64,000 nt of DNA from an uncultured bacterium (lineage in GTDB: Bacteria; Bacillota; Clostridia; Oscillospirales; Oscillospiraceae): contig CAOKLO010000001.1 in the NCBI GenBank assembly GCA_948469375.1, positions 104,861 through 168,860 on the forward strand. The letters run 5' to 3'. The first letter of the stretch is position 1. Every line of letters starts with the position of its first letter. The notes under the pieces were generated by a model, which saw nothing but the letters and a program-made list of their open reading frames with translations, was not told the origin of the DNA and ran no database searches. Below are positions 1-46,378 of this stretch, piece by piece. The position numbers and the translations under genes were made by a program.

Positions 1-247
1 GGCGGTTCAGGTTTCGGCTGATGGGATACTGCATATCCAGCGTGTCGTCCAGATAACGGATAATGTCCAGACACCGGTCCACACTACCCTCAAACAAGAG
101 ATAATCCGCCTTATCCAGGGCCAGACCAGCCCGGAGCAGCCGCTTGACCAGCTCGTCGTACAGCAGCAGCAGCAGCTCTCCCTGGGACATTTCGTTGATC
201 CCCTGTTCCTTATAGCCCTGGTACCCCTGGAAGCCTTTTCTGTCCAT
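1..247 (-). CDS. fliS: Flagellar export chaperone FliS (partial, C-terminus outside window)
   Basis: FliS is the cytosolic chaperone that binds the C-terminus of flagellin and keeps it unpolymerised before export. The visible 82 residues begin MDRKGFQGYQGYKEQGINEM, followed by SQGELLLLLYDELVKRLLRA, which is the start of the FliS four-helix bundle with its conserved Leu/Tyr-rich LLxLLYD stretch. The ATG ends at 247 and has an AAGGAG ribosome site just upstream. It follows fliD after about 30 nt, the usual fliD-fliS order, so it is probably read from the sigma-28 promoter at 3163-3189. The gene runs off the left edge. Confidence 0.88.
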   Translation of the reverse strand, partial: MDRKGFQGYQGYKEQGINEMSQGELLLLLYDELVKRLLRAGLALDKADYLLFEGSVDRCLDIIRYLDDTLDMQYPISRNLNR

Positions 248-277: not shown

Positions 278-3046
278 TTAGTAACCGGTGGAACCGCCCA
301 TCAGGCCGGAGAAGGCGGAGGCCTGAGAGTTCATCTCGGCGATCAATTGCTCCAGACGGCTGAACTGGGTGGTATAGCGGTCGATCTGGTCGGACATCTT
401 GTCCTGCCACCGCTCGATCTGGCTGTCGAGGCTGTCCATCTGGCTCTTCAGGGTGTTGCTGTTCAGAGAGGTGGGGGCCTTGACGGAACCGGCCCTGGTG
501 ATCAGTACGCCCTTGGGCTCGCCGGTGGTTTTGACATAGGTGTTCAGGGTGTTCTGCAAGGTCTGCATCAGCCCATCGCCGGAGGAGCCGCCCTCCTTGG
601 TCTTGGTGAAAGCGTTCTTCACCTTATCCGGGTCGCTGTCCAAAGCGGCGCGAAGCTTATCCTCGTCCAGGGACAGGGTGGTCAGCCCGTTGCTGTAGGA
701 GGTGCCGATGCCGATCTCCCGCAGGGTCTGTCCGTCGGTGCCGCCAGGCTGAATGGCGTTGAGCATCTTGCTGTAGAAGCTGGACAGGGTGGTATCGCCA
801 AACAGGATACCGGTCTTGGCCTTTTCGTTGTAGGCGGCCAGCTCACTCTCGCTGTACTGCTCCTCCTGCTCGGCGGTAAGGGGCTCGTACCGCTGCTTGT
901 TGCTGTTTGTCAGAGGCTGGGTGGAGTAGGCGCTCTTCAGCTCCGTGATCATCTCGTTGTAGTCGTCCACAAAGCTACGGATAGCCTCAACAATCTTATC
1001 GGAATCGGTGGTGGTGTTAAAGGTAATGGGCTCGTAGTCGCCCTCGCCGTCCTTGGGCTTCGCCTCAAAGGTGCCCTTCACGTTGACGGTCAGGCCGTCC
1101 AGGTTGAAGCTGTTGCTGCTGCGGGTCAGGCTCTCAAACCGCTTGCCGTTGATCTCCACATCCATGACGGCGTCCTGTCCGCTGGTATAGCTGGCGGTCA
1201 GCTGGGGCTTGAGCTCGCTGCCGTCCGAGCTTACCGTAAAGTCCATCATTTTGCCGGTATCGTCGGTTACGACAAGCTGCCCAGAAGCCTTATTATAGCT
1301 GGCAGTATAGCCAAAGGAGCTGAACGAGCCCTGGTTGTTCAGCTTATTGGCAATGTCCTCCATGGAGTCGGCGTTCGTGACGTCAAAGCTGAAATCAAAC
1401 TTGTCAAACCCAAAGGTAATGGATTTGCTTTGGCCGTCCGCCAAGCCGAGGCCATAGGTCTGGGAGAAATTATTCTTGCCGCTGCCGGAGGAAACGAACA
1501 TGCCCTCCGCCAGTCCGCCGAACTCGATCTTGCCGTTGGCGCCGGTCTCGGTGGCGGTGAACTTGAACTCGTTGGTCAGCTTGGAGTAGCTCACCTTTAC
1601 GCCCGACTCAGCGTTGGAGTTGATGGAGTTCATCAGGCCCTCCAGGGTGGTGTCCTCCGTGAGGTTGATGTTGGTGCCGTTGATCGAGAAGTCATACATA
1701 AACTTGCCGTCGGAGTTCACCCGGTAATAGTTGCCGTCCTCGTGGAGGCGCACCTTGTTGCCGGCGGCGTCAACAAGTCTGCTGGTGTTCACCGAGCCCA
1801 CCGGCTTCAGGCGGTTGTCAGCGGTGAACAGGTCGCCCATCAGGTCGCTGACCTTTTTGCTGGTGTTGATATAGTTGGCATCGCCGTTTTCAAAGCCCAG
1901 AGCCTGAATGCCGGTGCCGCCCAGGCTCAGCACGTCGCCTTCGACGGAGGGGGTGAAGGACAGCTTGTCGTCCTGCCTGTCCACGGTGACCCTGCCGGAG
2001 CCGAAAGCCTTGTCCAGCTCCTTCTGGAGGTTTTCCATGAAGGACCCGTTGGGGTCGGAGCCGTTCACATCGGTGGCCTTAATCACGTCCGACAGATTGA
2101 TGGTTTTGCTGACGCCATTGAGGCTGATGCCCAGGGTCTTGTCGGCCAGGTAGCTGTAAGTCTTGACGTCGTGGTCGGCCAGGGCGGCGTTTCCCACCTT
2201 GATGGTCTTGTCGCCGTCATCCTCGTTACCCAGACCGAACTTGTCCTTGATCTTGCCGGAGGAGGAGGTGATGGAGATATTGTTGCCGTTGCCCAGTCCG
2301 TCGGTGAAGGTGATGGTGCCGTCTCCGTTCGCCACAGCCTTAACGGCCCGGTCGGCGGTGGTGGTCTCGTTGAACCCGTTCTTGGTGTAGCTGTAGGTGA
2401 CCTCGCTGAGCTTTTTGTTGATGGCGTTGGCCAGCTTTTCCGCGCTGGTGTTCCCCTCAAACTCGTCGATGTCCTCCAGCTCGTCGAAGCTGATGTCAAA
2501 GGTGGTGCCGTTGGTGCCGCCGTACTGGAAGGTCAGGGAGCCGGAAATATTGCTCACCGTCATCTTACCGGAGATATCAAAATCCTTGCCGCCCACGGCG
2601 CTGGCGATCTCGCCCGCAGACTGTCCGCCCAAGCCGGACACGGTGTAGGTGGCGGCGGTGGCCATCTGCTTGACGGCGTTGATCTTGATGTCGCTGGAGC
2701 TCTTGCCGCTGGCGGTGATCTTGTCGGCGTAGGTGCCCAAAACGGCGGTATTTACCGCATTGGTGAAAAAGCTGCTGCTGAGCAGGTTGGTTTTGGAGGT
2801 ATAGGAGGTATACTTGGTGTTGAGGTTGGCCGCCTTGTCGATGATGCTACGGTAAGCCTCCTGCTGCCACTCGATCCTGGTACGCTTTTTCAGCAGGTTT
2901 TGGATTTTCATTTTGATGCCGGAGACCGCGTTTTCGATCATGGTCTCGGTATCCATGCCGCTGGCCAGGCCGCTGATCACATTTCGGCTGCCATAGATGC
3001 TGCTAGTTCTGGAAGTGCTGTTCATCATGCTGGTAATAGACGCCAT
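278..3046 (-). CDS. fliD: Flagellar filament cap protein FliD (HAP2)
   Basis: FliD forms the cap at the filament tip under which flagellin subunits fold and insert. The N-terminus (NVISGLASGMDTETMIENAV, then a helical QNLLKKRTRIEWQQEAYRS stretch at about residues 40-65) is the FliD_N domain. The C-terminus has FliD_C features: VDDYNEMITELKSAY, then a helical DSLDSQIERWQDKM region near the end. I start it at MASITSMM because AGAAAGGAGCGG lies just upstream of that ATG; the frame stays open 14 codons further. At 922 residues it is long for the family (commonly about 400-700), and the extra length lies in the central Gly/Ser/Thr/Asn-rich part. It is followed by fliS. Confidence 0.93.
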   Translation of the reverse strand: MASITSMMNSTSRTSSIYGSRNVISGLASGMDTETMIENAVSGIKMKIQNLLKKRTRIEWQQEAYRSIIDKAANLNTKYTSYTSKTNLLSSSFFTNAVNTAVLGTYADKITASGKSSSDIKINAVKQMATAATYTVSGLGGQSAGEIASAVGGKDFDISGKMTVSNISGSLTFQYGGTNGTTFDISFDELEDIDEFEGNTSAEKLANAINKKLSEVTYSYTKNGFNETTTADRAVKAVANGDGTITFTDGLGNGNNISITSSSGKIKDKFGLGNEDDGDKTIKVGNAALADHDVKTYSYLADKTLGISLNGVSKTINLSDVIKATDVNGSDPNGSFMENLQKELDKAFGSGRVTVDRQDDKLSFTPSVEGDVLSLGGTGIQALGFENGDANYINTSKKVSDLMGDLFTADNRLKPVGSVNTSRLVDAAGNKVRLHEDGNYYRVNSDGKFMYDFSINGTNINLTEDTTLEGLMNSINSNAESGVKVSYSKLTNEFKFTATETGANGKIEFGGLAEGMFVSSGSGKNNFSQTYGLGLADGQSKSITFGFDKFDFSFDVTNADSMEDIANKLNNQGSFSSFGYTASYNKASGQLVVTDDTGKMMDFTVSSDGSELKPQLTASYTSGQDAVMDVEINGKRFESLTRSSNSFNLDGLTVNVKGTFEAKPKDGEGDYEPITFNTTTDSDKIVEAIRSFVDDYNEMITELKSAYSTQPLTNSNKQRYEPLTAEQEEQYSESELAAYNEKAKTGILFGDTTLSSFYSKMLNAIQPGGTDGQTLREIGIGTSYSNGLTTLSLDEDKLRAALDSDPDKVKNAFTKTKEGGSSGDGLMQTLQNTLNTYVKTTGEPKGVLITRAGSVKAPTSLNSNTLKSQMDSLDSQIERWQDKMSDQIDRYTTQFSRLEQLIAEMNSQASAFSGLMGGSTGY

Positions 3047-3162
3047 ATTAGACCGCTCCTTTCTAAAAAGCTCATGGGCAAAACGCACCGCCCAAAGCGC
3101 ATTTGCAAAGGGAAATTTCTAAAAATTTTTTCACAGTTTTTTTGCTCTACCTCTGTTCTTTT

Positions 3163-3189
3163 TTATCGACCTGTAGTATATTAAACTTA
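3163..3189 (-). promoter_or_regulatory. Sigma-28 (FliA/SigD) promoter for fliD-fliS
   Basis: On the minus strand TAAG (3189-3186) is followed after exactly 15 nt by GTCGATAA (3170-3163). The consensus for flagellar sigma-28 is TAAA-N15-GCCGATAA, so both boxes match with one mismatch each. It lies about 115 nt upstream of the fliD ATG in an AT-rich gap. The sigma factor itself is encoded at 9787-10629. It overlaps the divergent upstream region of the ParA gene. Confidence 0.72.
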
Positions 3190-3230
3190 AGACTTTTCCC
3201 CAAGTTTTTGTGAAAGGGAGGGAACGTTTC

Positions 3231-4043
3231 TTGACTCAGATTATCACCGTCACCAACCAGAAGGGAGGGGTGGGTAAGACCACCACCGCCTCGGCCCTGG
3301 TGTGCGGGCTCCACCAGCGCGGCGCCAGGGTCTTGGGCATTGACCTGGACCCCCAAGGCAACCTGGGCTTCACCCTGGGGCTGGACATCGGCTCGAGCAG
3401 CACCGTGTACGACGTATTCAAGGGGACCTGTTCCATGGAGGAGGCCATCTCATCCACCGAGTACGGCGACATACTGCCTTCGGACATTATGCTGTCCACC
3501 GCAGAGGTGGAGTTTACCGCTCCCCGCCGGGAATTCATGCTCAGCGATCTGCTCACCGGTGTGCGCGACCGGTACGATTTCGTCATCATTGATACGCCGC
3601 CAGCTTTGAATATCCTGACGGTCAACGCCTACGTGGCCTCCAGCGGGCTCATTGTCCCCATGGAGGCGGAGGTGCTCAGCCTGGTGGGCGTCACCCAGCT
3701 CCAGGAGACCATTGAGGCCGTGCGGGACGCCTTCAACCCCCACCTGAAGGTCATCGGCATCCTCATCAACAAGTTCAACGGACGGCTCACCCTGTCCAAG
3801 GACATTTTGGAGCTGGCCCAGGAGGTGGCCGGCCAACTGGGCAGCCAGGTGTTCCAGGCCAAGATCCACCGGGGAGTGGGCGTGGCCATGGCCCCGGCCC
3901 ACGGGCAGAGCGTGCTCACCTACCAGCCGGACTCCCGCCCCGCCCAGGATTTCCAAGAAATCGTGGACGCGGTGGCCGGCGAGCGTTTCCCCCGGCCCAA
4001 GACCACATTCCGGCAGAAGTATATCTCTAAATTTTTCAATTGA
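3231..4043 (+). CDS. ParA/Soj/MinD-superfamily ATPase
   Basis: A deviant Walker-A ATPase of the ParA family, whose members form ATP-bound dimers that bind DNA or membrane and position cargo. With the TTG start at 3231 (270 residues) the motif KGGVGKTT is at 11-18, switch I DLDPQGNL near 40, and Walker B VIIDTPP near 120. The TTG is chosen because AAAGGGAGG sits 9 nt upstream; an in-frame GTG at 3210 has no such site. It is closest in character to chromosomal Soj but has no parB neighbour. Its partner gene is instead the ComFB-domain protein 18 nt downstream. It is probably not FlhG, because it lacks the usual flhF neighbour and the FlhG N-terminal extension. The role in positioning is inferred. 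Confidence 0.9.
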   Translation: MTQIITVTNQKGGVGKTTTASALVCGLHQRGARVLGIDLDPQGNLGFTLGLDIGSSSTVYDVFKGTCSMEEAISSTEYGDILPSDIMLSTAEVEFTAPRREFMLSDLLTGVRDRYDFVIIDTPPALNILTVNAYVASSGLIVPMEAEVLSLVGVTQLQETIEAVRDAFNPHLKVIGILINKFNGRLTLSKDILELAQEVAGQLGSQVFQAKIHRGVGVAMAPAHGQSVLTYQPDSRPAQDFQEIVDAVAGERFPRPKTTFRQKYISKFFN

Positions 4044-4061
4044 GTAAGGAGTATCAGCATC

Positions 4062-4793
4062 ATGGCATCAAAGGACAAAACCAGCAAGACCGCGCGGGTG
4101 ATGAACCTGCTGAGCAAGAAGACCGACCCCGCCCTGGAGGAGTCCGCCGGGAAACCGGCGGAGCAGCCCGCTTCCCCTGTGCCTCCCATTGTCACCGCTA
4201 TGGCCCCGGACGCCGCCGTGTCGGTGCAGATCAAAAACGCCCTGGAGGACGCCCTGGAGGGCGAGCTGGACTCCCAGGAGGCGGAGCTCCAGCCCGCTTC
4301 CCAGGCTCAGGCGGAGTTTGTGTCCGTCCAGGTGGCCGCGCCCGGGGAGGAGCCCGTATCTGCGGAGCCTGATTCTCAGCCCGAACCTGCCGCGCCCCTT
4401 TCCGCGCCTGCGGCGGAGGAGCCTGCGCCGGTTGCTGAGGAAGCCCCCGCGTCGGCCGCTGAGGTACCGGCCGGGCTGGTGGAGGAGCCCACTATGTGGA
4501 AGGAACCGCTTCAGCCGATAGACCCCGGCTATATCAACGTGATGCAGGTTTTGGTGGAGGAAAAGGCCCCGAAATACGTAAAGATGTTCGGCCTTTGCGA
4601 CTGCGCCCGCTGCATGGAGGACGTGAAAGCGTTTACGCTGAACCACCTGCCCCCCAAGTATGTGGTGCTGGAGCCGGGGGACCGGATTCCCCGCCTGACG
4701 GTCTATGAGGGCAAGTTCAGCAGCGACATTACGGCCCAGCTCCTTCAGGCCTGCAAGATTGTCCATAATACCCCCCATCACGGCCGGGACTGA
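4062..4793 (+). CDS. ComFB-domain protein with basic N-terminus and Pro/Ala/Glu-rich linker
   Basis: A 243-residue protein in three parts. Residues 1-21 are basic (MASKDKTSKTARVMNLLSKK). Residues 22-150 are low-complexity and acidic, rich in Pro, Ala and Glu. Residues 155-240 are a ComFB domain, with INVMQVLVEEKAP, then CDCARCMEDV (Cys179, 181, 184), then LNHLPPKYVV, the family hallmark. ComFB was first named from the Bacillus comF operon, and some members are reported to bind cyclic dinucleotides. The ATG has TAAGGAG upstream and is 18 nt from the ParA stop, so the two are co-transcribed. ParA partners often carry a short basic N-terminal peptide that stimulates the ATPase, which fits residues 1-21, but this is inference. 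A terminator follows. Confidence 0.82.
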   Translation: MASKDKTSKTARVMNLLSKKTDPALEESAGKPAEQPASPVPPIVTAMAPDAAVSVQIKNALEDALEGELDSQEAELQPASQAQAEFVSVQVAAPGEEPVSAEPDSQPEPAAPLSAPAAEEPAPVAEEAPASAAEVPAGLVEEPTMWKEPLQPIDPGYINVMQVLVEEKAPKYVKMFGLCDCARCMEDVKAFTLNHLPPKYVVLEPGDRIPRLTVYEGKFSSDITAQLLQACKIVHNTPHHGRD

Positions 4794-4863: not shown

Positions 4864-6153
4864 TCAGTTCTCAGGCGCTTCCTCCTCAATGGGGGGCAGC
4901 TGCTGGGGATAGGGATTGGTAAGCTGCTCCCATAGGGTGTTTACATTCTCCATGCAGATGAAATAGACGCTGGTCATCATGTTGTCGGGAATGCCCAGTT
5001 CCTCCGCTAATGTCGTGATGCGGTCCCAGTCGGCGGACTCGTAGCTGAGCACCAGATCGTACAGCATTCCGCACCGGCCCTCGTGGGTCAGCAGAGCGGT
5101 TTTGATATCGTCGGCCACCGGTACTTCGGCCAGAATTTCCTCTAAGGGCGCGTCAATGAGGTAATTCAGCGTGGAGAACATACCCATGAGGTAGGCCTCT
5201 GACTTGGAAATGGGTACGTTTTTGGCGTGAGTGATCAGCTCGCTGCAAAAATTGGCCCGCATAAAGGAGAGCTTCAAAAACTCCTCCGATCCGGGGTCCG
5301 TCTCGTTTTCCGCGTTGCTGGCGCTGAGCAGGTAAATCCACTGCTTCAGCTGCCCCAGACCCAGGGTCATGATGGCCTGGGTGATGGTGGTGGCCCGGTG
5401 GCGCAGGGCAAAATAGGCGGAGTTGACCATTTTCAAAAGGCCGTAGGTCAGGCTGGCGTCCGCAGCGATTAAGGTCTCAATTTCCTCCACGTTGGGCTCG
5501 TCCCTGGTGACGGCTACCATCAGTTGGAAGAAGTTGCTTTGGATGTAGGAGCTGCTGTGGGCGCGGGTGGTCAGCTTGTCGGCCACATAGGGGCCCTCCA
5601 GGCCGTCGGCGCCCAAAGCGATGGCTCGCTGATAGAGTTGCGGGTCATCGATGTTGGTGACAATGCACTTGATGTTCATGCTGTGGGCAATTTCCACCGT
5701 GTTGCGAATGGCCAGCTCCGTTGCGGTTTTGGCGTTGATTTTGATAAAGTGGATATCGTCCAGCAGGGACAGGTAGCGGGGGGTGAACTGAAAATCGTTT
5801 ACCGCAATGCGGTAGCCCTCCTTGACATACTGCTGCACCAGGTGCATGGACAGGGGATGAATGATAACCGCGTCGTCGATTTGAATGACCAGGTCGTTCT
5901 TGTCGAAGAGACGGGGCGTCTTTTTCATCAGCAGCATGGTGGTAAAGGTCATGAAATTCAGCGTGCCCTTGAGCACCTTGGGGCTGTTGTCGGTGAGAAA
6001 GCTATAGATGGTATTGGCGGCGGCAAATTCCGCGCTTGAGGTGGAGCTGTCGCTGCTAAAGGCCTGATTGGCCCCGTGATATAGGATTTCATGTCCCAGG
6101 GTATTGCCCTCAGGGTCCCGGATGGGTTGCCGCACGATGTATTTGCCGCTCAT
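4864..6153 (-). CDS. Degenerate EAL plus HDOD domain signalling protein (YuxH-like)
   Basis: A 429-residue protein with an N-terminal EAL-like domain (about 1-200) and a C-terminal HDOD domain (about 205-400, LTYGLLKMVNSAYF and LGLGQLKQWIYLLS). The EAL part keeps the fold signature (VRQPIRDPEGNTLGHEILYH) but has lost catalytic positions: the usual DDFG is NDFQ and the usual KID is KIN. Hydrolysis of c-di-GMP is therefore unlikely and a binding or scaffold role is more plausible. It is the last gene of the flagellar operon, 27 nt after cheV, and ends at the bidirectional terminator. Bacillus YuxH has the same domain pair. Confidence 0.85.
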   Translation of the reverse strand: MSGKYIVRQPIRDPEGNTLGHEILYHGANQAFSSDSSTSSAEFAAANTIYSFLTDNSPKVLKGTLNFMTFTTMLLMKKTPRLFDKNDLVIQIDDAVIIHPLSMHLVQQYVKEGYRIAVNDFQFTPRYLSLLDDIHFIKINAKTATELAIRNTVEIAHSMNIKCIVTNIDDPQLYQRAIALGADGLEGPYVADKLTTRAHSSSYIQSNFFQLMVAVTRDEPNVEEIETLIAADASLTYGLLKMVNSAYFALRHRATTITQAIMTLGLGQLKQWIYLLSASNAENETDPGSEEFLKLSFMRANFCSELITHAKNVPISKSEAYLMGMFSTLNYLIDAPLEEILAEVPVADDIKTALLTHEGRCGMLYDLVLSYESADWDRITTLAEELGIPDNMMTSVYFICMENVNTLWEQLTNPYPQQLPPIEEEAPEN

Positions 6154-9786: not shown

Positions 9787-10629
9787 TCATGCCTTCTTCC
9801 GCTTTTTGGATGATTTTTTTGGGGCCTCGCTGTTCATGTATGTGCCCATGTGCTCCCGGAGCTTCTGAATGGCCCGGGAGTGAATCTGGGAGATGCGCGG
9901 CTCGCTCACCTGCATCACCTGGGCGATCTCCTTCATGTGAAGGTTCTTTTCATAGTAAAGGGACAGAACGATCTGCTCGTTTTTTTGCAGGGAGGCAATG
10001 CCGCTGGCCAGGGTCTCCTGAAGCTCCTGGTCCTCCAGCACGGTCTCGGGCTGGACGGTGGGGTCTTCGGTGGACACCTCGAAGCGGTAGCCCTCCAGGT
10101 CCCGGGCGTCCATGAGGGCGTCCAGGGACAGAGTGTTGCTCAGCGCCACCCGTGCGGCCTCCTTCTGGTACTTGTCGGTGGGGATGCCCAGATGGCCGGC
10201 CACCTCGTGGTCGGTGGGAAACCGCCCCAGCTCATTGGCCAGGTGGGACACGGCGGTGTCGATCTCCTTGGCCCGCTGCCGGATGTTCCGGGGCAGCCAG
10301 TCCTGCTTCCTGGCCAGGTCGATGACCATTCCCCGGATGCGCTTGGCCACATAGGTCTCAAATTTGATCCCCTTGTCCGGGTCAAACTTGTCAATGGAGT
10401 TCAGCAGTGTGAGAATGCCCTCGCTGACGATGTCGTCCACCTGGGCAAAGCTGCTGTACACACCGCGGATTTGAAGCGCCGCGCTTTTGATGAGCCCCTC
10501 ATACCGCAGCACCAGGGGCCATTTCAGTTCCTCGTCCCCGGTCTGCTTGTAGAGCGCCAGCAGGTCGGGAGTGGCCATCGATTCGATTTCGCCGTCCGTA
10601 TACCGCCGCTGGACCGTGTTGGCGCTCAT
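9787..10629 (-). CDS. fliA: RNA polymerase sigma-28 factor for flagellar genes (FliA/SigD/WhiG family)
   Basis: Directs RNA polymerase to late flagellar and chemotaxis promoters. Region 2 spans about residues 38-110 (VDDIVSEGILTLLNSIDKFD, ETYVAKRIRGMVIDLARKQD), followed by the family-typical WLPRNIRQRAKEID. Region 4 spans about 205-262 (KEIAQVMQVSEPRISQIHSR). The last 12 residues are strongly basic. Its ATG overlaps the flhA stop (ATGA). Being inside the early operon, it would activate late genes such as fliD at 3163-3189. The anti-sigma factor flgM is not in the window. Confidence 0.95.
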   Translation of the reverse strand: MSANTVQRRYTDGEIESMATPDLLALYKQTGDEELKWPLVLRYEGLIKSAALQIRGVYSSFAQVDDIVSEGILTLLNSIDKFDPDKGIKFETYVAKRIRGMVIDLARKQDWLPRNIRQRAKEIDTAVSHLANELGRFPTDHEVAGHLGIPTDKYQKEAARVALSNTLSLDALMDARDLEGYRFEVSTEDPTVQPETVLEDQELQETLASGIASLQKNEQIVLSLYYEKNLHMKEIAQVMQVSEPRISQIHSRAIQKLREHMGTYMNSEAPKKSSKKRKKA

Positions 10630-12731
10630 GTATTCACCGCCCTTCGCTGGAGCTGGGCGGCCGTCTGGTCCACAATGTTGCCCAGGGCCTGGATCTGAAC
10701 GGTGTTGGTGATCTCATTGAAAGACAGCACGTAAACGTGGGGATAGAACTGAGTAATCATTTTGCTAAAATACCCGCGGATCACCTGGCTGACCAGGATG
10801 ACCGGCGTCTGGGACAGGTCGCTGAACTTCTTCAAATGCTCCGCCAGCTGGGAGATAATGGTCTGCATCAGCTCGGGACCCATAGCCAGGTACACGCCCT
10901 GCTCGTTGCGGGTGAGGGAGGAGATAATTTTCTTCTCCACCTCGGCGTCCAGGGTAATGACCCGCAACTGGCCGTCCTCGCAGAACCGGCGGGTAATGGT
11001 GCGGGCCAGGGCGCCGCGGACCTGCTCGGTGGCCATATCCAGGTCCCGGCCCTGGGAGAACGCGTCGGCGGCGGTCTCCACGATGGTGGCCAAATCCTTG
11101 ATGGGCACGCCCTCCTGAAGGAGGTTGCGCAGCAGCTTCTCCAGCTTGGAGTAGGGAATGAGGGCGGGGATGGCCTCCTCCACCAGCTCGGGGGAGGCCT
11201 GCTTGAGATTGTCCACCAGTCGTATGGTCTCGGCCCGGTTCAGCAGCTCGTATGCGTGCTTCTTCACGGTCTCGGCCAAATGGGTCAGCATGACGGACAG
11301 GGGGTCGATGACGTTGTAGCCGTAAATCTCCGCCATCTCCTTGTTCTCCGGCAAAATCCACCGGGAGGGGATACCGTAGGCGGGCTCGATGGTCTCGATG
11401 CCGTCGATCTCCCCCAGGGGATTGGGCGGTTCCAAGGCTAAATAGTAGTCCACCAGGATTTCGCCCTGGGCCACCACCTCGCCCTTGATGCGGATGGCGT
11501 ACTGGTTGGTGCCCAGCGCAGAGGAATCGTGGAGGCGGATGGACGGGATGACAAAGCCCATATCCTGGGCGTACTGCCGCCGGAAGATGACAATGCGGCT
11601 GATGAGCTTGCCGCCGTGGCTTTCGTCCACCAGCGGAATCAGGCTGTAGCCGAATTCCATCTCCACCGGCTCCACCGACAGCAGGGTATATACGTTATTG
11701 ATGTCCTTATAATAATCGTTTTCGCTGGGAACGGCCAGCTCCTCGGGCACATCGGGAGCCTGGGCCGCAGCTGCTTCCGCCTGGCGCACGGCGTTCATCT
11801 GGCGCACCAGGAAGAACCCGCCGCCCAGCAGGGCCACGCCGCCCACCATCAGGGGGGCGGTGGGCGTGCCGCGAATGAGCGACAGAATGAGCAGAATCAC
11901 GCCGGTGGTCATTATGGCCCGGGGCTGAGCCTTGAACTGGCCCAGCACATCCATGTTCAGGCTGCCGTCGGACACAGAGCGGGTGACGATCATGCCCGTG
12001 GCGGTAGAGATCATCAGGGAGGGGATCTGGGACACCAAGCCGTCGCCAATGGTGAGGATGCAATAGGTGTTCATGGCCTGGGAGATATCCATGTGGTTGA
12101 TGACCATGCCGATGATGATGCCGCCCACCAGGTTAATGAGCGTGATGATAATGGACATGGTGGAATCGCCCTTGACGATCTTGGTGGCGCCGTCCATGGC
12201 GCCGTAGAAATCGGCTTCCTTTTGGATCTTCTCCCGGCGCTGACGGGCCTGCTGCTCGTCGATGAGTCCGGAGGACAGGTCGGCGTCAATGGCCATCTGC
12301 TTGCCGGGCATGGCGTCCAGAGTGAACCGGGCGGCCACCTCGGACACGCGCTCCGCACCCTTAGTGATGACGATGAGCTGGACCAGCACGATGATGAAGA
12401 AGATGACGAAGCCCACTACGATGTTGCCTTGGGTAATCAGGTTGCCGAAGTTGGTGATGACCACGCCGGGGTCCCCAGTGGTGAGGATCATCCGGGTACT
12501 GGACACGTTCATACCCAGCCGGAACAGCGTTGTAATGAGCAGCAGGGAGGGGAAGATGGAGAAATCCAGCGCCTCCGAGATGTTCATGGTAATCATCAGG
12601 ATCATGATGGACAATCCGATGTTGACGATCAGCAGGATGTCCAGAATCCAGGGGGACAGCGGGATAAACAGGAACATGACCATGACCACCACGAACAGCG
12701 CTATGGAATTGTCCAAAATGCGTTTGAGCAT
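10626..12731 (-). CDS. flhA: Flagellar type III export gate protein FlhA
   Basis: FlhA is the largest membrane component of the flagellar export gate and its cytosolic nonamer ring docks chaperone-substrate complexes. The N-terminal half has about eight membrane spans. Between them lies the hallmark loop RFTLDAMPGKQMAIDADLSS near residue 140. The soluble C-terminal half (about 350-701) is the docking domain. The ATG has GGAGGT 9 nt upstream. In many Firmicutes flhF and flhG follow flhA; here the sigma factor follows directly with a 4-nt overlap. Confidence 0.97.
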   Translation of the reverse strand: MLKRILDNSIALFVVVMVMFLFIPLSPWILDILLIVNIGLSIMILMITMNISEALDFSIFPSLLLITTLFRLGMNVSSTRMILTTGDPGVVITNFGNLITQGNIVVGFVIFFIIVLVQLIVITKGAERVSEVAARFTLDAMPGKQMAIDADLSSGLIDEQQARQRREKIQKEADFYGAMDGATKIVKGDSTMSIIITLINLVGGIIIGMVINHMDISQAMNTYCILTIGDGLVSQIPSLMISTATGMIVTRSVSDGSLNMDVLGQFKAQPRAIMTTGVILLILSLIRGTPTAPLMVGGVALLGGGFFLVRQMNAVRQAEAAAAQAPDVPEELAVPSENDYYKDINNVYTLLSVEPVEMEFGYSLIPLVDESHGGKLISRIVIFRRQYAQDMGFVIPSIRLHDSSALGTNQYAIRIKGEVVAQGEILVDYYLALEPPNPLGEIDGIETIEPAYGIPSRWILPENKEMAEIYGYNVIDPLSVMLTHLAETVKKHAYELLNRAETIRLVDNLKQASPELVEEAIPALIPYSKLEKLLRNLLQEGVPIKDLATIVETAADAFSQGRDLDMATEQVRGALARTITRRFCEDGQLRVITLDAEVEKKIISSLTRNEQGVYLAMGPELMQTIISQLAEHLKKFSDLSQTPVILVSQVIRGYFSKMITQFYPHVYVLSFNEITNTVQIQALGNIVDQTAAQLQRRAVNT

Positions 12732-35104: not shown

Positions 35105-37216
35105 TTATTCGTGTATCTTTCCGGGCGCGGTTTCTCCATCGATGGGGGAAACCGCCGAAATATCCTCGCCCACATGGGTGTGCTCCTCGTGATAGTAGCT
35201 GTAGTGGCCCTTGCCGCTGTTCTTCACCACGTAAAGGGCCTCGTCCGCACAGCGGAACAGGGACTCGTAATCCGCCTCCACCGTCTCAGTGCTGGCCACG
35301 CCCATGCTCACCGAGATAGTGAAATCCTCGTAAACGCCGCCGCTGACCCGGTTATAAATGCCGTCGATGGTAGATTCCAGGTCGTCCTTGTACTCCAGGA
35401 AGATGAGGAACTCGTCCCCGCCCACCCGGGCGGCAATGTCCCCGCCCCGGATGCTGTGGCGCATCCGTTCGGCCAGGAATTTCAGCACCTGGTCGCCGAA
35501 CATATGGCCGTAGGTGTCGTTGGCGGACTTGAAATAATCCAGATCCAGGATGGCCAGGGCGTAGAGTCCGGTTGGCCGGTCCTCCATACGCTCCATGATG
35601 CGTTTTCTGGCATAATCCCGGTTGACCAGGCCGGTGAGGGCGTCGTGGGAGGCCTGGAGCTCCAGGGTTTCCAGCTGGAGTCGGGAGGAGTGAACGTCCA
35701 GCGCCTTGCCGATGCAGCCGGTGTACCGGGGGGGCTCCTCGGAGGACCAGGAGGCCCGGGCGATGATCCGGTGCCAGCGCTCCTCGCCCTCCACCCGCAT
35801 TTTGCAGTCGAAGGTGACCACGGGGCTGCCGGGAGTGGTGGTGTGGAGCATATCCGCCAAGCTTTCCAGGTCCTCTCTAGGGAGCACAGCCATGGCCTCC
35901 TGGTTCTGGTAGGGCTCCAGGAGGGTCTCGGGCAGGCCCAGCTTTTCCGCGCCCCAGGTGTTCAGCACCATGGCGGGCGGGGTAACGGTATACTCGAACT
36001 GAATCTCCTTGGTCAGGGAGGCGAAGAAGCTGTACTTCATCCGCTCATGCTCCAGCAGCTCCAGGGTGCGCTCGGAGGCGGTGAGCTCCTCGTGCTTGTG
36101 GAGCTCCCGGGCCACGTTCTGCATTTCCCGGCGGCTGCGGGACTCGGCGTCTTCGGCGCTCAACTCCGACCGGATGATGTCGGCGCAGTCCCGCAGGCAG
36201 TCCATCACCAGGGGATTGAAGGTGCCGCACTCCCCGTTGAGGATCATGTGGATGGCCTGCTCGTGGCTGTATGCGGGCTTATACACCCGCTCGGAGGTCA
36301 GCGCGTCGTACACGTCGGCCAGCGCCACCATTTGGGCGGAGATGGGGATCTCGTCCTCCTTCAAGCCGTCTGGGTAGCCCCGTCCGTCCCACCGCTCGTG
36401 ATGCCAACGGCAGATCTGGTAGGCGGCCTTTACCAGCGGCTCGTTCTGATGGAAGGGCAGGGCCTCCAGCATTTCCGCCCCCACCATGGAGTGGGTTTTC
36501 ATGATGGCGAACTCCTCGTCGGTGAACCGCCCCGGCTTGTTGAGGATCTCCTCGGGGATGGCGATCTTGCCGATGTCGTGGAGGGCGGAGGCGGTGCTGA
36601 TGACGGAGATGTCCGTCTGGGTCAGGTGGTATTTGTCCGTCTTCTGAATGAGTGTTTTGAGCATGATCTCGGTGAGCGTATGTACATTGCGCACGTGCAT
36701 TCCGCTCTCGCCGTTTCGGAACTCCACGATGTGGCTGAGTATGTCGATCATCAGGCTGCTGCGGTGCTCCTTCTCGAAAATCTGGTCGGCCACCATGGAG
36801 GTCAGTTTTTTCTGCTTGGCGTACAGCAGGATGGTGTTCACCACCCGGCGGTGGACGATAAGCGCGTCGAAGGGCCGGCTGATGAAGTCGGTGATACCCA
36901 GCTCAAAGGCCCGCTCGATGTGGCTGGATCCCCGCTCGGCGGAGATCATAATCACCGGAATATCCTCGATCCAGTGGTATTTGTTCATCAGATTCAGCAC
37001 GCCGAAGCCGTCCATCTGGGGCATGACGATATCCAGCAGCACCAGGGAGATTTCCGCGCTGTGGGCTTGCAGCATGGATACGCCCTCTTTTCCGTTTTCC
37101 GCCTCAATGATATTGAACTCGCCGCCCAGCATATCCGCCAAAATGGCGCGGTTCATCTCCGAGTCGTCCACAATGAGTATGGTCTGTTTGCCTTCTGCTC
37201 TGTCCAAGGTATCCAT
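35105..37216 (-). CDS. REC-HD-GYP-PAS-GGDEF cyclic-di-GMP response regulator
   Basis: A 703-residue cytosolic protein with both c-di-GMP-making and c-di-GMP-degrading domains. The receiver (10-130) has phospho-acceptor Asp62 (LLDIVMPQMDG). HD-GYP (about 155-345) has the metal motif HDIGK at 213-217, then WHHERWDGRGYPDG at 271-284. A PAS-like region spans about 395-510. The GGDEF domain (520-690) has GGDEF intact at 599-603 and an inhibitory I-site RGGD at 590-593, exactly five residues upstream. Both active sites appear complete. ATG 37216 abuts the AAAGGGG site; TTG at 37207 has better spacing (9 nt) and may be the true start. First gene of the signalling operon. Confidence 0.93.
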   Translation of the reverse strand: MDTLDRAEGKQTILIVDDSEMNRAILADMLGGEFNIIEAENGKEGVSMLQAHSAEISLVLLDIVMPQMDGFGVLNLMNKYHWIEDIPVIMISAERGSSHIERAFELGITDFISRPFDALIVHRRVVNTILLYAKQKKLTSMVADQIFEKEHRSSLMIDILSHIVEFRNGESGMHVRNVHTLTEIMLKTLIQKTDKYHLTQTDISVISTASALHDIGKIAIPEEILNKPGRFTDEEFAIMKTHSMVGAEMLEALPFHQNEPLVKAAYQICRWHHERWDGRGYPDGLKEDEIPISAQMVALADVYDALTSERVYKPAYSHEQAIHMILNGECGTFNPLVMDCLRDCADIIRSELSAEDAESRSRREMQNVARELHKHEELTASERTLELLEHERMKYSFFASLTKEIQFEYTVTPPAMVLNTWGAEKLGLPETLLEPYQNQEAMAVLPREDLESLADMLHTTTPGSPVVTFDCKMRVEGEERWHRIIARASWSSEEPPRYTGCIGKALDVHSSRLQLETLELQASHDALTGLVNRDYARKRIMERMEDRPTGLYALAILDLDYFKSANDTYGHMFGDQVLKFLAERMRHSIRGGDIAARVGGDEFLIFLEYKDDLESTIDGIYNRVSGGVYEDFTISVSMGVASTETVEADYESLFRCADEALYVVKNSGKGHYSYYHEEHTHVGEDISAVSPIDGETAPGKIHE

Positions 37217-37326
37217 CCCCTTTATTTGGGCACAGCCTGTGTGCCGTAAAGCTCGTTTGCCGGGCTGGTGGGCCCTGTTTCCTCCCATTTTCCGGCGGGT
37301 GGGCATAAGCTCTCACAGTACCCTTG
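37217..37326 (-). promoter_or_regulatory. Structured leader sharing a motif with the flgB leader
   Basis: From the promoter at 37327-37356 the leader runs about 105 nt. It contains GCCGG (37298-37294) pairing with CCGGC (near 37264-37260). Inside that is TGGG / CCCA enclosing GGAAACAGG. The core GGGAGGAAAC (37286-37277) is identical to that at 31926-31917 in the flgB leader, and in both it lies 30-40 nt after the -10 box. A further GGCACA / TGTGCC stem lies near 37230-37246. No start codon follows the GGAGG at a usable distance in either leader. Confidence 0.5.
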
Positions 37327-42746: not shown

Positions 42747-43565
42747 TCAGCCGTTGCCCGCGGCAGCGCTGACGTTCAGCGGAGACAGGCAGCCCCGCTT
42801 ACAAACCTCCATGCACTTGCCGCAGCCGTCGCACTTGGCGTAGTCGATGCTGGCCAGGTTGTCGGCCACGGTAATCGCTCCATTGGGGCAGTTCTTCTCA
42901 CACAGGCGGCAGCCGATGCAGCCCACGGTGCAGCTCTTGGTAGTACCCGCGCCCTTTTGGCGGCTGTTGCACGCCACCACCATATGGGCGTCGGCGGGAC
43001 GGATGGCGATGACGCCGCTGGGACAGGTCTTGGCGCACAGGCCGCAGCCGATGCAGGCGCTGGCATCCACCCGGGCCAGGCCGCCGTTGACATGGATGGC
43101 TCCCACAGGGCACACCCGGGCGCAGTCGCCCAGGCCCATACAGCCGAACACGCACTTGCCGGTGCCGCCGAAGAGCAGCTTGGCGGCAGAGCAGCTGTCC
43201 AGGCCTTTATAATCCATCTTCACGGAGGTGGCCTCACAGGTGCCGGAGCAGCGGACCTCGGCCACTTGCTTGACCACGTCGCCGGCCTCCCGGCCCAGCA
43301 CCTTGCCGATGCTGGCGGAGGCGGTGGCTCCGCCGGGGACGCACAGGCTGACGGACAGGTCGGGGTTCTCCACCAGGGCGGCGGCATAGCCGTCGCAGCC
43401 GGCAAAGCCGCAGGCGCCGCAGTTGGCGCCGGGCAGGCACTCGCGGACCATGGGGATGCGCTCGTCCACCTCCACCGCCATGAACTTGGAGGCGATGGTC
43501 AGCATCACGGCGCACAGCAGGCCGATGACGGCTACTACCAGCACAGCAATTACAATCGGATTCAT
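42747..43565 (-). CDS. rnfB: Rnf electron transport complex subunit RnfB
   Basis: The ferredoxin-docking iron-sulfur subunit of the Rnf ferredoxin:NAD+ oxidoreductase. An N-terminal membrane anchor (3-25) is followed by GANCGACGFAGCDGYAAAL, a [4Fe-4S] site near residues 49-57. The ferredoxin-like clusters follow: CMGLGDCARVCPVGA, CIGCGLCAKTCPSG, CIGCRLCEKNCPNGA and CDGCGKCMEVCKRGC. That is a larger set than in proteobacterial RnfB and fits the clostridial form. AAGGAGGGG precedes the ATG. It is last of rnfCDGEAB. Confidence 0.95.
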   Translation of the reverse strand: MNPIVIAVLVVAVIGLLCAVMLTIASKFMAVEVDERIPMVRECLPGANCGACGFAGCDGYAAALVENPDLSVSLCVPGGATASASIGKVLGREAGDVVKQVAEVRCSGTCEATSVKMDYKGLDSCSAAKLLFGGTGKCVFGCMGLGDCARVCPVGAIHVNGGLARVDASACIGCGLCAKTCPSGVIAIRPADAHMVVACNSRQKGAGTTKSCTVGCIGCRLCEKNCPNGAITVADNLASIDYAKCDGCGKCMEVCKRGCLSPLNVSAAAGNG

Positions 43566-43580
43566 ATACGCTTCCCCTCC

Positions 43581-44189
43581 TTAACCCAGCAGATTTTCCA
43601 CGATGCCGGCGAAGCCCATGAAGGACACGGACACGATGGCCGCGGAAATCAGGGTGATGGGCATACCCTTAAAGCTCTCAGGGCAATTGCACTTGTCCAC
43701 CCGGCTGCGCACGCCGGAGAACAGCACCATGGCCAGCAGGAAGCCCAGGCCGGAGCCCAGGGAGTTGAACATGGCCTGGACGAAGCCGGGGCCGAAGTCG
43801 GTGACCAGGTAGTTGTCGATGTTGCTGATGCACACGCCCAGCACGGCGCAGTTGGTGGTGATCAGGGGCAGGTACACGCCCAGGGAGGCGTGGAGCGCGG
43901 GGATGTACTTCTTGAGGATGATCTCAACCAGCTGCACCAGGGCGGCGATGACCAGGATGAACACGATGGTCTGAAGGTAGCCCAGGCCGTTGGGGTTAAG
44001 CACGAAAAACTGAATGGGGAAGGTGACGGCGGTGGCCAGCAGCATAACGAAAATGACGGCCACGCTCATGCCGGCGGCCTGGTCCAGCTTTTTGGACACG
44101 CCCAGGAAGGGACAGATGCCCAGGAACTGAGACAGCACGTAGTTGTTGACCAGGATCGCGGCCATCACGATAGCGAGCAATTCTTTCAT
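43581..44189 (-). CDS. rnfA: Rnf complex subunit RnfA
   Basis: Integral membrane subunit with about six spans that, with RnfE, forms the membrane core and holds an intramembrane iron-sulfur centre. VNNYVLSQFLGICPFLGVSK carries the conserved Cys, and ITTNCAVLGVCISNIDNYLV the second. Length 202 is standard. Its ATG overlaps the rnfE stop (ATGA). Confidence 0.96.
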   Translation of the reverse strand: MKELLAIVMAAILVNNYVLSQFLGICPFLGVSKKLDQAAGMSVAVIFVMLLATAVTFPIQFFVLNPNGLGYLQTIVFILVIAALVQLVEIILKKYIPALHASLGVYLPLITTNCAVLGVCISNIDNYLVTDFGPGFVQAMFNSLGSGLGFLLAMVLFSGVRSRVDKCNCPESFKGMPITLISAAIVSVSFMGFAGIVENLLG

Positions 44190-44878
44190 TTCGCGGCAGC
44201 CTCCCTCTTGTCAGCGCAGTTCTGCCCGTTGCACGCCGCAGCGCTGGGGCAGCCCTCACAGCTGAAGTCTTTTTTCTTGATGGCCTTGCCGTTGCTGGCC
44301 TTGTTGATGATGGCGATGAGAATGCCGAAGATGGCGAAGCCGCCGGGGGCCATGGTCATGATGGAGATGTTGTTCTCACTGAGCACGGGCAGGGCGATGC
44401 CGAACCAGGTGCCCGCGCCGAAGATCTCGCGGATGGAGGCCATGGCCAGCATGGCCAGGGTGTAGCCCACCCCCATGCCGATGGCGTCCAGGGCGGAGTC
44501 GAAGGCGGTGTTCTTGTTGGCAAACATCTCGGCCCGGCCCAAGATGATGCAGTTCACCACGATCAGGGGCAGGTACAGGCCCAGGGCCACGTCCAGGGCG
44601 GGCAGGAAGGCCTTGACAATCATCTGCACCAGCGTCACGAAGGAGGCGATGACCACGATGTAGCAGGGGATGCGCACCTTGTCGGAGATCACCTTGCGCA
44701 GCAGGGAGATCATCACGTTGGAGCACAGCAGCACGAAGGTGACCGCCGCGCCCATGCCGATGGCGTTGGACGCCTGGGTGGTGACCGCCAGGAAGGGGCA
44801 GGTGCCCAAAATCAGCACCAGAATGGGGTTTTCCTTGATGATGCCGTTGGTCAGGATTTGCAGCTTATTGTTTTTCAT
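44186..44878 (-). CDS. rnfE: Rnf complex subunit RnfE with a C-terminal Cys-rich tail
   Basis: Integral membrane partner of RnfA. LTNGIIKENPILVLILGTCP then FLAVTTQASNAIGMGAAVTF and LIVVNCIILGRAEMFANKNT are diagnostic, with the paired Cys of the membrane cluster. After the last span the protein adds a tail with Cys207, 210, 216 and 221 (CEGCPSAAACNGQNC, CX2CX5CX4C), then KREAAAK. The tail could bind a metal or iron-sulfur centre. GGGAGG precedes the ATG. Confidence 0.95.
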   Translation of the reverse strand: MKNNKLQILTNGIIKENPILVLILGTCPFLAVTTQASNAIGMGAAVTFVLLCSNVMISLLRKVISDKVRIPCYIVVIASFVTLVQMIVKAFLPALDVALGLYLPLIVVNCIILGRAEMFANKNTAFDSALDAIGMGVGYTLAMLAMASIREIFGAGTWFGIALPVLSENNISIMTMAPGGFAIFGILIAIINKASNGKAIKKKDFSCEGCPSAAACNGQNCADKREAAAK

Positions 44879-44897
44879 AGCAGTGTGCCTCCCTTCC

Positions 44898-45440
44898 TCA
44901 GCCGTTCACCGCGTCGAAAGCGGTGTAAGCGTCTGCAATGGCGGCCCGGTAGTAGTTGGAGGAGAACGTGGCGCCGGAGATGTTGTCCACACCCTCCAGC
45001 CCCCTGTCCTTGCCGGGGAATTGGTCCTTGAAGGCGTCGGTGGTAATCTTGGAGCCCAGACCAGCGGTCTCGGAGTGGCTGAGCACCTTGGTATCGGTGA
45101 TCTTGCCGTCCATGTCGATGCCGATGGTCATTTTCAGCGTGTTCTTGCCGCCGTAGCCCTGGGTGGTGAGGGAGAACACGTAGCCCGTGCCGTTGGTAGC
45201 CTGGAACACGCCGGTGATGGAGTCGGGCAGGCCCGCGATCTCCACCTGCTCGAAGCCGTCGGCCTCCGGCATAACCTCCAGCCGGGCGGCCTCGTTGGCG
45301 GCGCGCTCGGCCTCCTCAATGATGGGGGCGGTGATGCTGTTGGTCAGAGCCAGCAGTCCGCTCATGACCGCGCAGATCAGAACCAGCACAATGATGGGGG
45401 CCCCGAAGTCGGTCATTACATTGGATTTCGCTTTTGTCAT
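44898..45440 (-). CDS. rnfG: Rnf complex flavoprotein subunit RnfG
   Basis: Membrane-anchored subunit with covalent FMN. One N-terminal span (about 13-33) is followed by an FMN-binding domain. The flavinylation motif is SGAT at 155-158 in VDNISGATFSSN, so Thr158 is the attachment residue. Attachment needs an ApbE flavin transferase, which is not in this window. The ATG overlaps the rnfD stop (ATGA). Confidence 0.95.
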   Translation of the reverse strand: MTKAKSNVMTDFGAPIIVLVLICAVMSGLLALTNSITAPIIEEAERAANEAARLEVMPEADGFEQVEIAGLPDSITGVFQATNGTGYVFSLTTQGYGGKNTLKMTIGIDMDGKITDTKVLSHSETAGLGSKITTDAFKDQFPGKDRGLEGVDNISGATFSSNYYRAAIADAYTAFDAVNG

Positions 45441-46378
45441 GCCTGCACACCTCCAAACGGCTTGGTCTTGGTCCAGCTGCTGATGTAGGGATTGAGGATG
45501 TTCATGAGCAGGATGGAGAAGGACACGCCCTCAGGATAATTGCCCCACACGCGGATGAGCACCGTGATGAGGCCGCAGCCCACGCCGAAGATCAGCTTGC
45601 CGGCGGGGGTGGGGGGAGAGGTGGTGTAGTCGGTGGCCATGAAGATGGCGCCGATGAACAGGCCGCCCGCCATAACCTGGTACAGCGGCTGCTGGCCCAG
45701 GATCGCAGTAAACACCAGCACCGTGCCGATGAAGGCCACGGGGGTGTGCCAGGAGATGACCTTGCGGCAAAGCAGGTAAACGAAGCCGATGAGCAGGGCC
45801 AGGCAGCTGGTCTCGCCCATGGAGCCGCCCCGGGCGCCCAGGAACATCTGGGCCAGGGTGGGCAGCTCGCCGGCCGCGCCCTCGGCGCCCAGCAGGGCCA
45901 GGGGGGTGGCGGCAGTGACAGCGTCCACCGGGGCGTTGGAGAACGCGGCGGGGACAAAGGCGGTCATGGTGCCGGAGAAGGCCACCAGCATAATGACGCG
46001 GGCGGTGATGGCGGGGTTGGCGAAGTTCTGGCCGATACCGCCGAAGAACTGCTTCACCACGACAATGGCCACGAAGGAGCCGAAAATGGCCTGCCAAATG
46101 GGGATATTCACCGGCAGGTTCAGGGCCAACAGCAGGCCGGTGACGGCGGCGGAGCAGTCCATAATGGTAATGGGCCGGTTGCAGATTTTCTCGAAGGCCC
46201 ACTCGCAGGCCACGGCCACCGCGACGCACACCACCTCCACCAACAGGGCCTGGACGCCGAAAAAGAGGACGGATGCCACAACGGCGGGCATCAGGGCGAT
46301 GAGCACGTCCCGCATGATGGTCTGGGTGGTGTCCTTGGCGTAGACGTGGGGGTTGACGGAAACGATCATGTTGTTCAT
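45437..46378 (-). CDS. rnfD: Rnf complex subunit RnfD
   Basis: Membrane subunit with about eight spans and a second covalent FMN. The likely site is Thr158 in VDAVTAATPLALL. Other family motifs are TTQTIMRDVLIALMPAVVAS and FFGGIGQNFANPAITARVIM, with TTSPPTPAGKLIFGVGCGL near the C-terminus. AGGAGG lies just before the ATG, which directly abuts the rnfC stop. Confidence 0.95.
   Translation of the reverse strand: MNNMIVSVNPHVYAKDTTQTIMRDVLIALMPAVVASVLFFGVQALLVEVVCVAVAVACEWAFEKICNRPITIMDCSAAVTGLLLALNLPVNIPIWQAIFGSFVAIVVVKQFFGGIGQNFANPAITARVIMLVAFSGTMTAFVPAAFSNAPVDAVTAATPLALLGAEGAAGELPTLAQMFLGARGGSMGETSCLALLIGFVYLLCRKVISWHTPVAFIGTVLVFTAILGQQPLYQVMAGGLFIGAIFMATDYTTSPPTPAGKLIFGVGCGLITVLIRVWGNYPEGVSFSILLMNILNPYISSWTKTKPFGGVQA

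Follow-up and report, generated by a model that had tools for sequence, protein, structure and literature searches.

Several described systems resemble, in one respect or another, the gene pair considered here. In Myxococcus, a basic 22-residue peptide at the N-terminus of the Ala/Pro-rich domain of PomX activates the ParA-like ATPase PomZ, and the C-terminus of PomX is self-interacting (PMC7993993). The FlhF-FlhG system ties a Walker-type ATPase to flagella, and FlhG contacts FliM via the FliM N-terminus (PMC12826062). ComFB proteins are represented by those of Bacillus subtilis (4wai) and Synechocystis (CdgR/ComFB; 8hja, a complex with c-di-GMP), the latter binding c-di-AMP (2.6 uM) as well as c-di-GMP (PMC12313861).

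The pair lies in a window of 64,000 nucleotides (the whole stretch of DNA that was analysed), part of contig C1 of an uncultured Oscillospiraceae genome of 3.68 Mb that is 91.6% complete. Like PomX-PomZ, it joins a basic N-terminal peptide, an Ala/Pro-rich region and a dedicated ParA-type ATPase; however, the tail of the partner is a ComFB domain, the link is to flagella and not to division, and the likeness drawn here is one of build. With FlhF-FlhG it shares the association of a Walker-type ATPase with flagella, but it has no FlhF and the C-terminal tail of its ParA is not conserved. As in Soj/Spo0J, the partner bears a basic N-terminal peptide, and ParA/Soj proteins are the closest solved structures to the window ParA; in contrast, the partner is not a ParB, several of the basic positions of Soj differ and the genome has its own soj-parB. 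Compared with both ComFB proteins, the partner adds an N-terminal extension, the pairing with a ParA and a flagellar setting. The features of the locus are the following:

2 to 247, minus strand: 5' part of fliS, the window edge removing its 3' end (PF02561, E 7.1e-14)
278 to 3046, minus strand: fliD, divergent neighbour (PF07195, E 8.5e-41)
3163 to 3190, minus strand: sigma-28-like promoter of fliD, an intergenic, conserved site
3231 to 4043, plus strand: parA (P0001, 270 aa), a Soj-type Walker ATPase with the deviant Walker A KGGVGKTT
4062 to 4793, plus strand: partner of ParA, ending in a ComFB domain (P0002, 243 aa), from Pfam, alignment and structure model
4062 to 4121, plus strand: basic N-terminal peptide of the partner, residues 1-20, with 6 Lys/Arg, 1 Asp and the motif KTARVMNLL
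4212 to 4277, plus strand: second conserved helix of the partner, residues 51-72, S-x-Q-I-K-x-A-L-E-x-x-L
4530 to 4781, plus strand: ComFB domain, residues 157-240, with the zinc motif C179xC181xxC184...H240
4864 to 6153, minus strand: EAL-HDOD protein, convergent neighbour (PF08668, E 1.7e-19; partial PF00563, E 2.5e-9)
10626 to 12731, minus strand: flhA, with fliA (9787-10629) directly after it and no flhF-flhG in between

The two genes are on the same strand, 18 nt apart. The start of parA is the TTG at 3231, and the mechanical open reading frame begins at GTG 3210. The initial annotation had placed the pair between fliD-fliS and flagellar/chemotaxis genes, and Pfam matches confirm this siting: the convergent side carries the EAL-HDOD gene, cheV, cheD, cheC, two flgG-like genes, fliA and flhA. 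Unlike in Bacillus, the window ComFB does not lie in a comF operon, its neighbours being flagellar and chemotaxis genes; the partner is a ComFB by family and fold, and no competence role is claimed. In our own reading, the EAL signature of the EAL-HDOD neighbour appears degenerate (EIL for EAL, NDFQ for DDFG), so that this protein is probably no phosphodiesterase. The window also holds a response regulator-HD-GGDEF protein (35105-37306) and Rnf-type electron transport genes (42747-46378). In a promoter scan with the sigma-28 consensus, a sigma-28-like site in the fliD direction is present in 38 of 41 loci, the shuffling expectation being 7.1 per direction. Sites in the parA direction occur in 6/41 loci, which is not above the 7.1 expected by shuffling, and the window has none within 3 mismatches; sigma-28 control of parA, and with it shared regulation with the late flagellar genes, is therefore unsupported.

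The ParA matches PF13614 (AAA_31; E 1.1e-50) and PF01656 (E 2.4e-26). Residues K11 and K16 of the deviant Walker A and the catalytic D40 are invariant in 15/15 aligned pair ParAs (an alignment that omits L050, L055 and the truncated L059), and the protein, as judged from alignment, retains the residues that mark a Walker ATPase as active. It had been described as a Soj-type ParA without an adjacent parB, and the Pfam matches of its neighbours agree; a profile search of the genome's contigs gives no parB match on contig C1. Matches of parB type are present on contigs C11, C49, C105, C91 and C74, and also on C6, where a soj-like parA is flanked by two parB-type genes. A canonical ParB elsewhere in the genome had been named as an argument against the proposed pairing: canonical-looking parA-parB neighbours do exist, but with other parA genes. 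In a ParA tree, 33 of the 35 ParAs linked to ComFB group in a single clade (SH-aLRT 85), separate from Soj and far from FlhG, with L050 and L055 placed elsewhere. Identity of the ParA with FlhG is rejected in view of this tree position and of the only 10 residues that precede Walker A K11; a DQAxxLR helix is found in the FlhGs of relatives and not in the window ParA. The latter ends in a basic, amphipathic-looking tail (FRQKYISKFFN), and a MinD-like membrane anchor at this site was set aside because the tail is missing from the other aligned pair ParAs.

The Soj-like character of the ParA would suit an orphan DNA-partition pair hitch-hiking in a flagellar cluster, as would R185, which is Arg in 12/12 Soj rows and Arg or Lys in 30/30 pair ParAs. 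Yet several other positions have lost the basic residue of Soj, for example R217 (12/12 Soj rows vs 0/30 pair ParAs) and R214 (11/12 vs 5/30, the window ParA retaining it), and others have gained one, for example K181 (0/12 vs 30/30). Moreover, the only Pfam match of the partner is ComFB, with no ParB domain, and the pair travels together with the FlhA type, as described below. This explanation appears highly improbable.

The partner matches PF10719 (ComFB) over residues 159-238 (E 1.5e-16; 60.6 bits, curated cut-off 25) and is the only ComFB match in the 91.6% complete genome. Residues Cys179, Cys181, Cys184 and His240 are invariant in 18/18 aligned partners; the C-terminal ComFB domain with Cys179/181/184 that was read from the sequence initially is thereby borne out. 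His240 is probably the fourth zinc ligand, a role held by Cys88 in B. subtilis ComFB (PMC4381287). Residues 1-20 are the proposed ATPase-activating peptide, within which a helix (residues 9-18) is modelled at a pLDDT of about 60 for the partner alone. A co-fold of the N-terminus with ParA had been suggested; in a read-through ParA-partner model, a monomer without ATP, the peptide is not docked and its pLDDT falls to about 40, so that docking on ParA is unsupported by this model. The variable, Pro/Ala/Glu-rich linker had been taken to be disordered. Its variability stands for residues 71-155, with a mean pairwise identity of 0.33 vs 0.61 for residues 41-70, but it is not fully disordered: conservation extends over residues 41-70, and the structure model contains a helix at 51-72 (pLDDT about 80), with A60 and L61 in 50/50 rows and I57 in 49/50. 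This second conserved helix is a new observation.

For the survey of the pair, 79 named loci were collected with a partner alignment, the N-terminal motif being one of two search patterns. The parA gene is directly upstream of the partner gene in 74/74 of the named loci with room for it, no more than 200 nt away in 70 and further off in four, and five loci begin at a contig end; the two genes are thus neighbours in related species, as the initial annotation had supposed. The closest of these loci belong to Oscillospiraceae (for example Lawsonibacter, Oscillibacter, Flavonifractor and Pseudoflavonifractor). In a sample of the order, ComFB is present in 37/295 genomes, and the surroundings were read for 40 of the 41 matches (one of the two in G084 being left out); a ParA is directly upstream in 18 of these 37 genomes, with locus L074 (G249), whose ComFB was not located by the script, left unjudged. 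For L071 (G213), whose partner gene runs off its contig, the ParA was matched on another contig (L269). A ParA search of 16 genomes negative for FlhF raised the order pairs from 18 to 23, the five further genomes having ParA relatives (49-75% identity) paired with a motif-bearing partner.

An N-terminal motif, KTA[HR]V[ML]NL with near variants, is found in 94 of 99 ParA-linked partners, a count that omits partners truncated where their contig stops (L127, L133, L148, L152 and L188), covers genomes that are not all distinct, as do the 100 sequences used below (the named and unnamed sets overlap at L149/L078, L159/L077 and L181/L044), and holds partly by construction for the named set, because the motif served as search pattern and 74 named partners were taken by it. 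A separate count was therefore made of ParA-linked partners found by ComFB profile or by ParA, independently of the motif, and 20 of these 25 carry it. Among the stand-alone ComFB proteins examined none does (0/50: 0/20 from the order and 0/30 from the class). The ParA-linked partners without the motif are L045, L050, L055, L058 and L069. L058 and L069, whose ParAs form a subclade with that of L045, have in common an alternative N-terminus, KE[LQ]MYKK[IL]MPS, and L045 has a looser relative of it. L050 and L055 (family f6) apparently represent a second, separate ParA-ComFB pairing, in which both the N-terminus and the ParA lineage are different. In family f26, KTxxVMxL is retained by the partners L270-L272, whose ComFB domain Pfam no longer recognises and of which L272 is without the ComFB cysteines; the window partner matches L270 weakly (E 2e-4). 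The patterns in f26 and in L058/L069 suggest that the N-terminus of the partner tracks the ParA and outlives the tail, and persistence of the motif where ComFB has decayed is as expected of a ParA-activating peptide. Conservation of the N-terminus, a point on which the initial proposal could have failed, is thus upheld, and the constant pairing, the absence of the motif from solo proteins and its retention despite ComFB decay make the assignment of the ComFB protein as the ParA partner well supported at the genomic level.

The association with flagella is also marked in gene content. FlhA is present in 51/295 order genomes, and every one of the 18 order pairs found first belongs to this set (Fisher 1e-15). 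Of the fliD/fliS neighbourhood, proposed as a conserved setting, fliD is largely retained: among the 68 named loci with room, 62 have a divergent fliD next to the pair. No flagellar genes adjoin the pairs of L050, L055 and L069. The L058 pair adjoins flgN-, flgK-, flgL- and fliW-like genes (named by eye), and that of L045 adjoins FlhB-like, flagellin-, fliW- and cheA-like genes (partly named by eye). In a tree of FlhA (59 rows; the FlhF label of G595, G612 and G646 is from gene order, that of G628 from kin only), presence of the pair requires 3 changes and follows the FlhA type, not the host family. Both FlhA types occur within families f1, f7, f13, f17 and f52; for example, G529 of f52 has the pair and an FlhA of the pair clade, and the other 7 tested members of f52 have FlhF. 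It looks as if the whole flagellar cluster has moved horizontally. The module is conserved, on this genomic survey, in many flagellated gut Clostridia, usually within the flagellar gene cluster, and the claim that it is tied to flagella is well supported by genomics; that the pair serves the flagellar system is, on the same evidence, well supported.

A profile search finds no FlhF above cut-off in the window genome; nor is there any in the pair carriers G450 and G529. In FlhF-positive relatives, flhA is followed by flhF and flhG; an FlhF-sized gene and FlhG come after it in L108, L109, L110 and L243-L245. Of the 51 flagellated order genomes, 17 have an FlhF above cut-off, and the pair is found in 23 of the 34 FlhF-negative ones vs 0/17 FlhF-positive ones (Fisher 2e-6); the ParA search covered 16 FlhF-negative genomes and none of the 17 FlhF-positive, where a decayed partner may therefore have been missed. 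The exclusion of FlhF and pair coincides with a single deep division in the FlhA tree and thus counts as about one event, and an independent-pairs test on this tree is without power. Replacement of FlhF by the pair is not obligatory: in 11 flagellated order genomes FlhF is missing and no pair was found, and 6 (G305, G342, G383, G446, G473 and G476) of 80 hand-chosen genomes among the 147 flagellated ones of the class are without FlhF or a known pair.

Some linkers offer a hint as to the target. A motif resembling [LM]SxxxIxxLL has 21 matches in 5 of 100 partner sequences vs 0.38 expected (maximum 3 in 200 shuffles). It occurs in 2 to 6 copies per linker in the lineages of G114 and genus g28 (L268 at 2409-3621; L051, L064, L070 and L269), and the window's own partner has none. 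These repeats resemble the N-terminus of FliM (in the window FliM, MAEVLSQSQIDALLNS), known as the CheY-P site. They are a lineage-specific pointer, at the level of a hint, to the target of the module, and together with the absence of FlhF and FlhG they point to the basal body/C-ring or to CheY-P. The likeness extends to FlhG, which binds the same FliM segment (PMC12826062); no literature joining FlhG, FliM and EIDALL was found.

Docking of CheY-P by such repeats would also be expected if the module positioned chemoreceptor arrays or chemotaxis proteins, in the manner of ParC or PpfA/TlpT. The repeats of these two lineages, cheV, cheD and cheC in the adjoining operon, a receptor-like gene read from the sequence after the pair in L271, and the basic N-terminal extension of TlpT (PMC7993993) are all consistent with this. 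However, the closest and most constant neighbour is fliD, the EAL-HDOD gene flanking the pair opposite it in just 51 of 77 loci, and the associations with FlhA type and FlhF absence concern flagella. Array positioning is thus an unlikely function, if one of some substance.

Cyclic-dinucleotide control of the module is plausible from the ComFB/CdgR fold and the presence of GGDEF proteins: GGDEF matches (scored for presence, catalytic motifs aside) are found in 25/25 pair genomes, with one weak match in G084, and the pairs L270, L271 and L272 of f26 are each preceded by a GGDEF gene. Such sensing cannot be indispensable in all lineages, since the f26 partners are without a Pfam-detectable ComFB. 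The usual setting of ComFB raises the question of competence or of type IV pili; pili are under ComFB regulation in cyanobacteria (PMC12313861), and the 30 solo class ComFB loci (L192-L221) are mostly by aro-, pilus- and prepilin-peptidase-like genes, named by eye. Nevertheless, the family is nearly confined to flagellated genomes, FlhA being present in 109/112 ComFB-positive vs 38/279 ComFB-negative genomes of the Clostridia class sample (a table that drops the weak FlhA matches of G351, G378 and G488), and the carrier Oscillibacter valericigenes Sjm18-20 (L176) has peritrichous flagella and swims, type IV pilus genes being reported absent (PMC3558957). A role of the pair in pili or competence is very unlikely.

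Taken as a module for flagellar placement or number, the pair could work as follows. Dimerisation of the ComFB domain would double the N-terminal peptides, which, by analogy with the N-termini of ParB and PomX (TlpT and McdB being proposed parallels), would engage ParA in its ATP-bound, dimeric state and set off hydrolysis; the resulting cycle could give rise to pattern formation or to gradients of ParA. Through the linker with its helix, the complex may be tethered to the flagellar system, the likeliest targets being CheY-P and the nascent C-ring/basal body, and flagellar placement or number would thereby be controlled in a lineage without FlhF and FlhG. This activity may in turn be tuned by c-di-GMP or c-di-AMP, sensed by the ComFB domain. 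The core of this proposal, that in such a lineage the pair sets flagellar placement or number as a ParA with its activator, seems to us about evenly balanced between right and wrong. Its fuller form, a new stand-in for FlhF-FlhG in a broad set of gut Clostridia in which a cyclic-dinucleotide-sensing ParA activator reaches the C-ring, with FliM-mimicking motifs in some lineages, is tentative and less likely than not.

It is also conceivable that the pair governs expression or assembly checkpoints, such as flagella number or a late-gene switch, via nucleotide sensing and without positioning. FlhG affects gene expression via FlrA/FleQ (PMC12826062), cyanobacterial CdgR works through DevH (PMC13075795), and the divergent fliD promoter is conserved; but Pfam finds no DNA-binding domain in ParA or partner, and ParAs with basic-peptide partners normally position cargo (PMC7993993). 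This seems a rather improbable role, and placement or number of flagella remains the preferred reading.

In the literature on ComFB with c-di-GMP, ParA or flagella, drawn mostly from titles and the first lines of abstracts and with subscription papers mostly outside it, the pair is undescribed. Among the carriers, those bearing the names of cultured strains include Oscillibacter valericigenes Sjm18-20, Flavonifractor plautii ATCC 29863 and Oscillibacter ruminantium GH1. No ParA activator under direct control of a second messenger is known to us; the partner would be one, should its ComFB tail bind a cyclic dinucleotide. The pair gives ComFB a flagellar setting and, were the fuller form of the proposal to hold, flagellar placement or number in these bacteria would be directly responsive to c-di-GMP or c-di-AMP.
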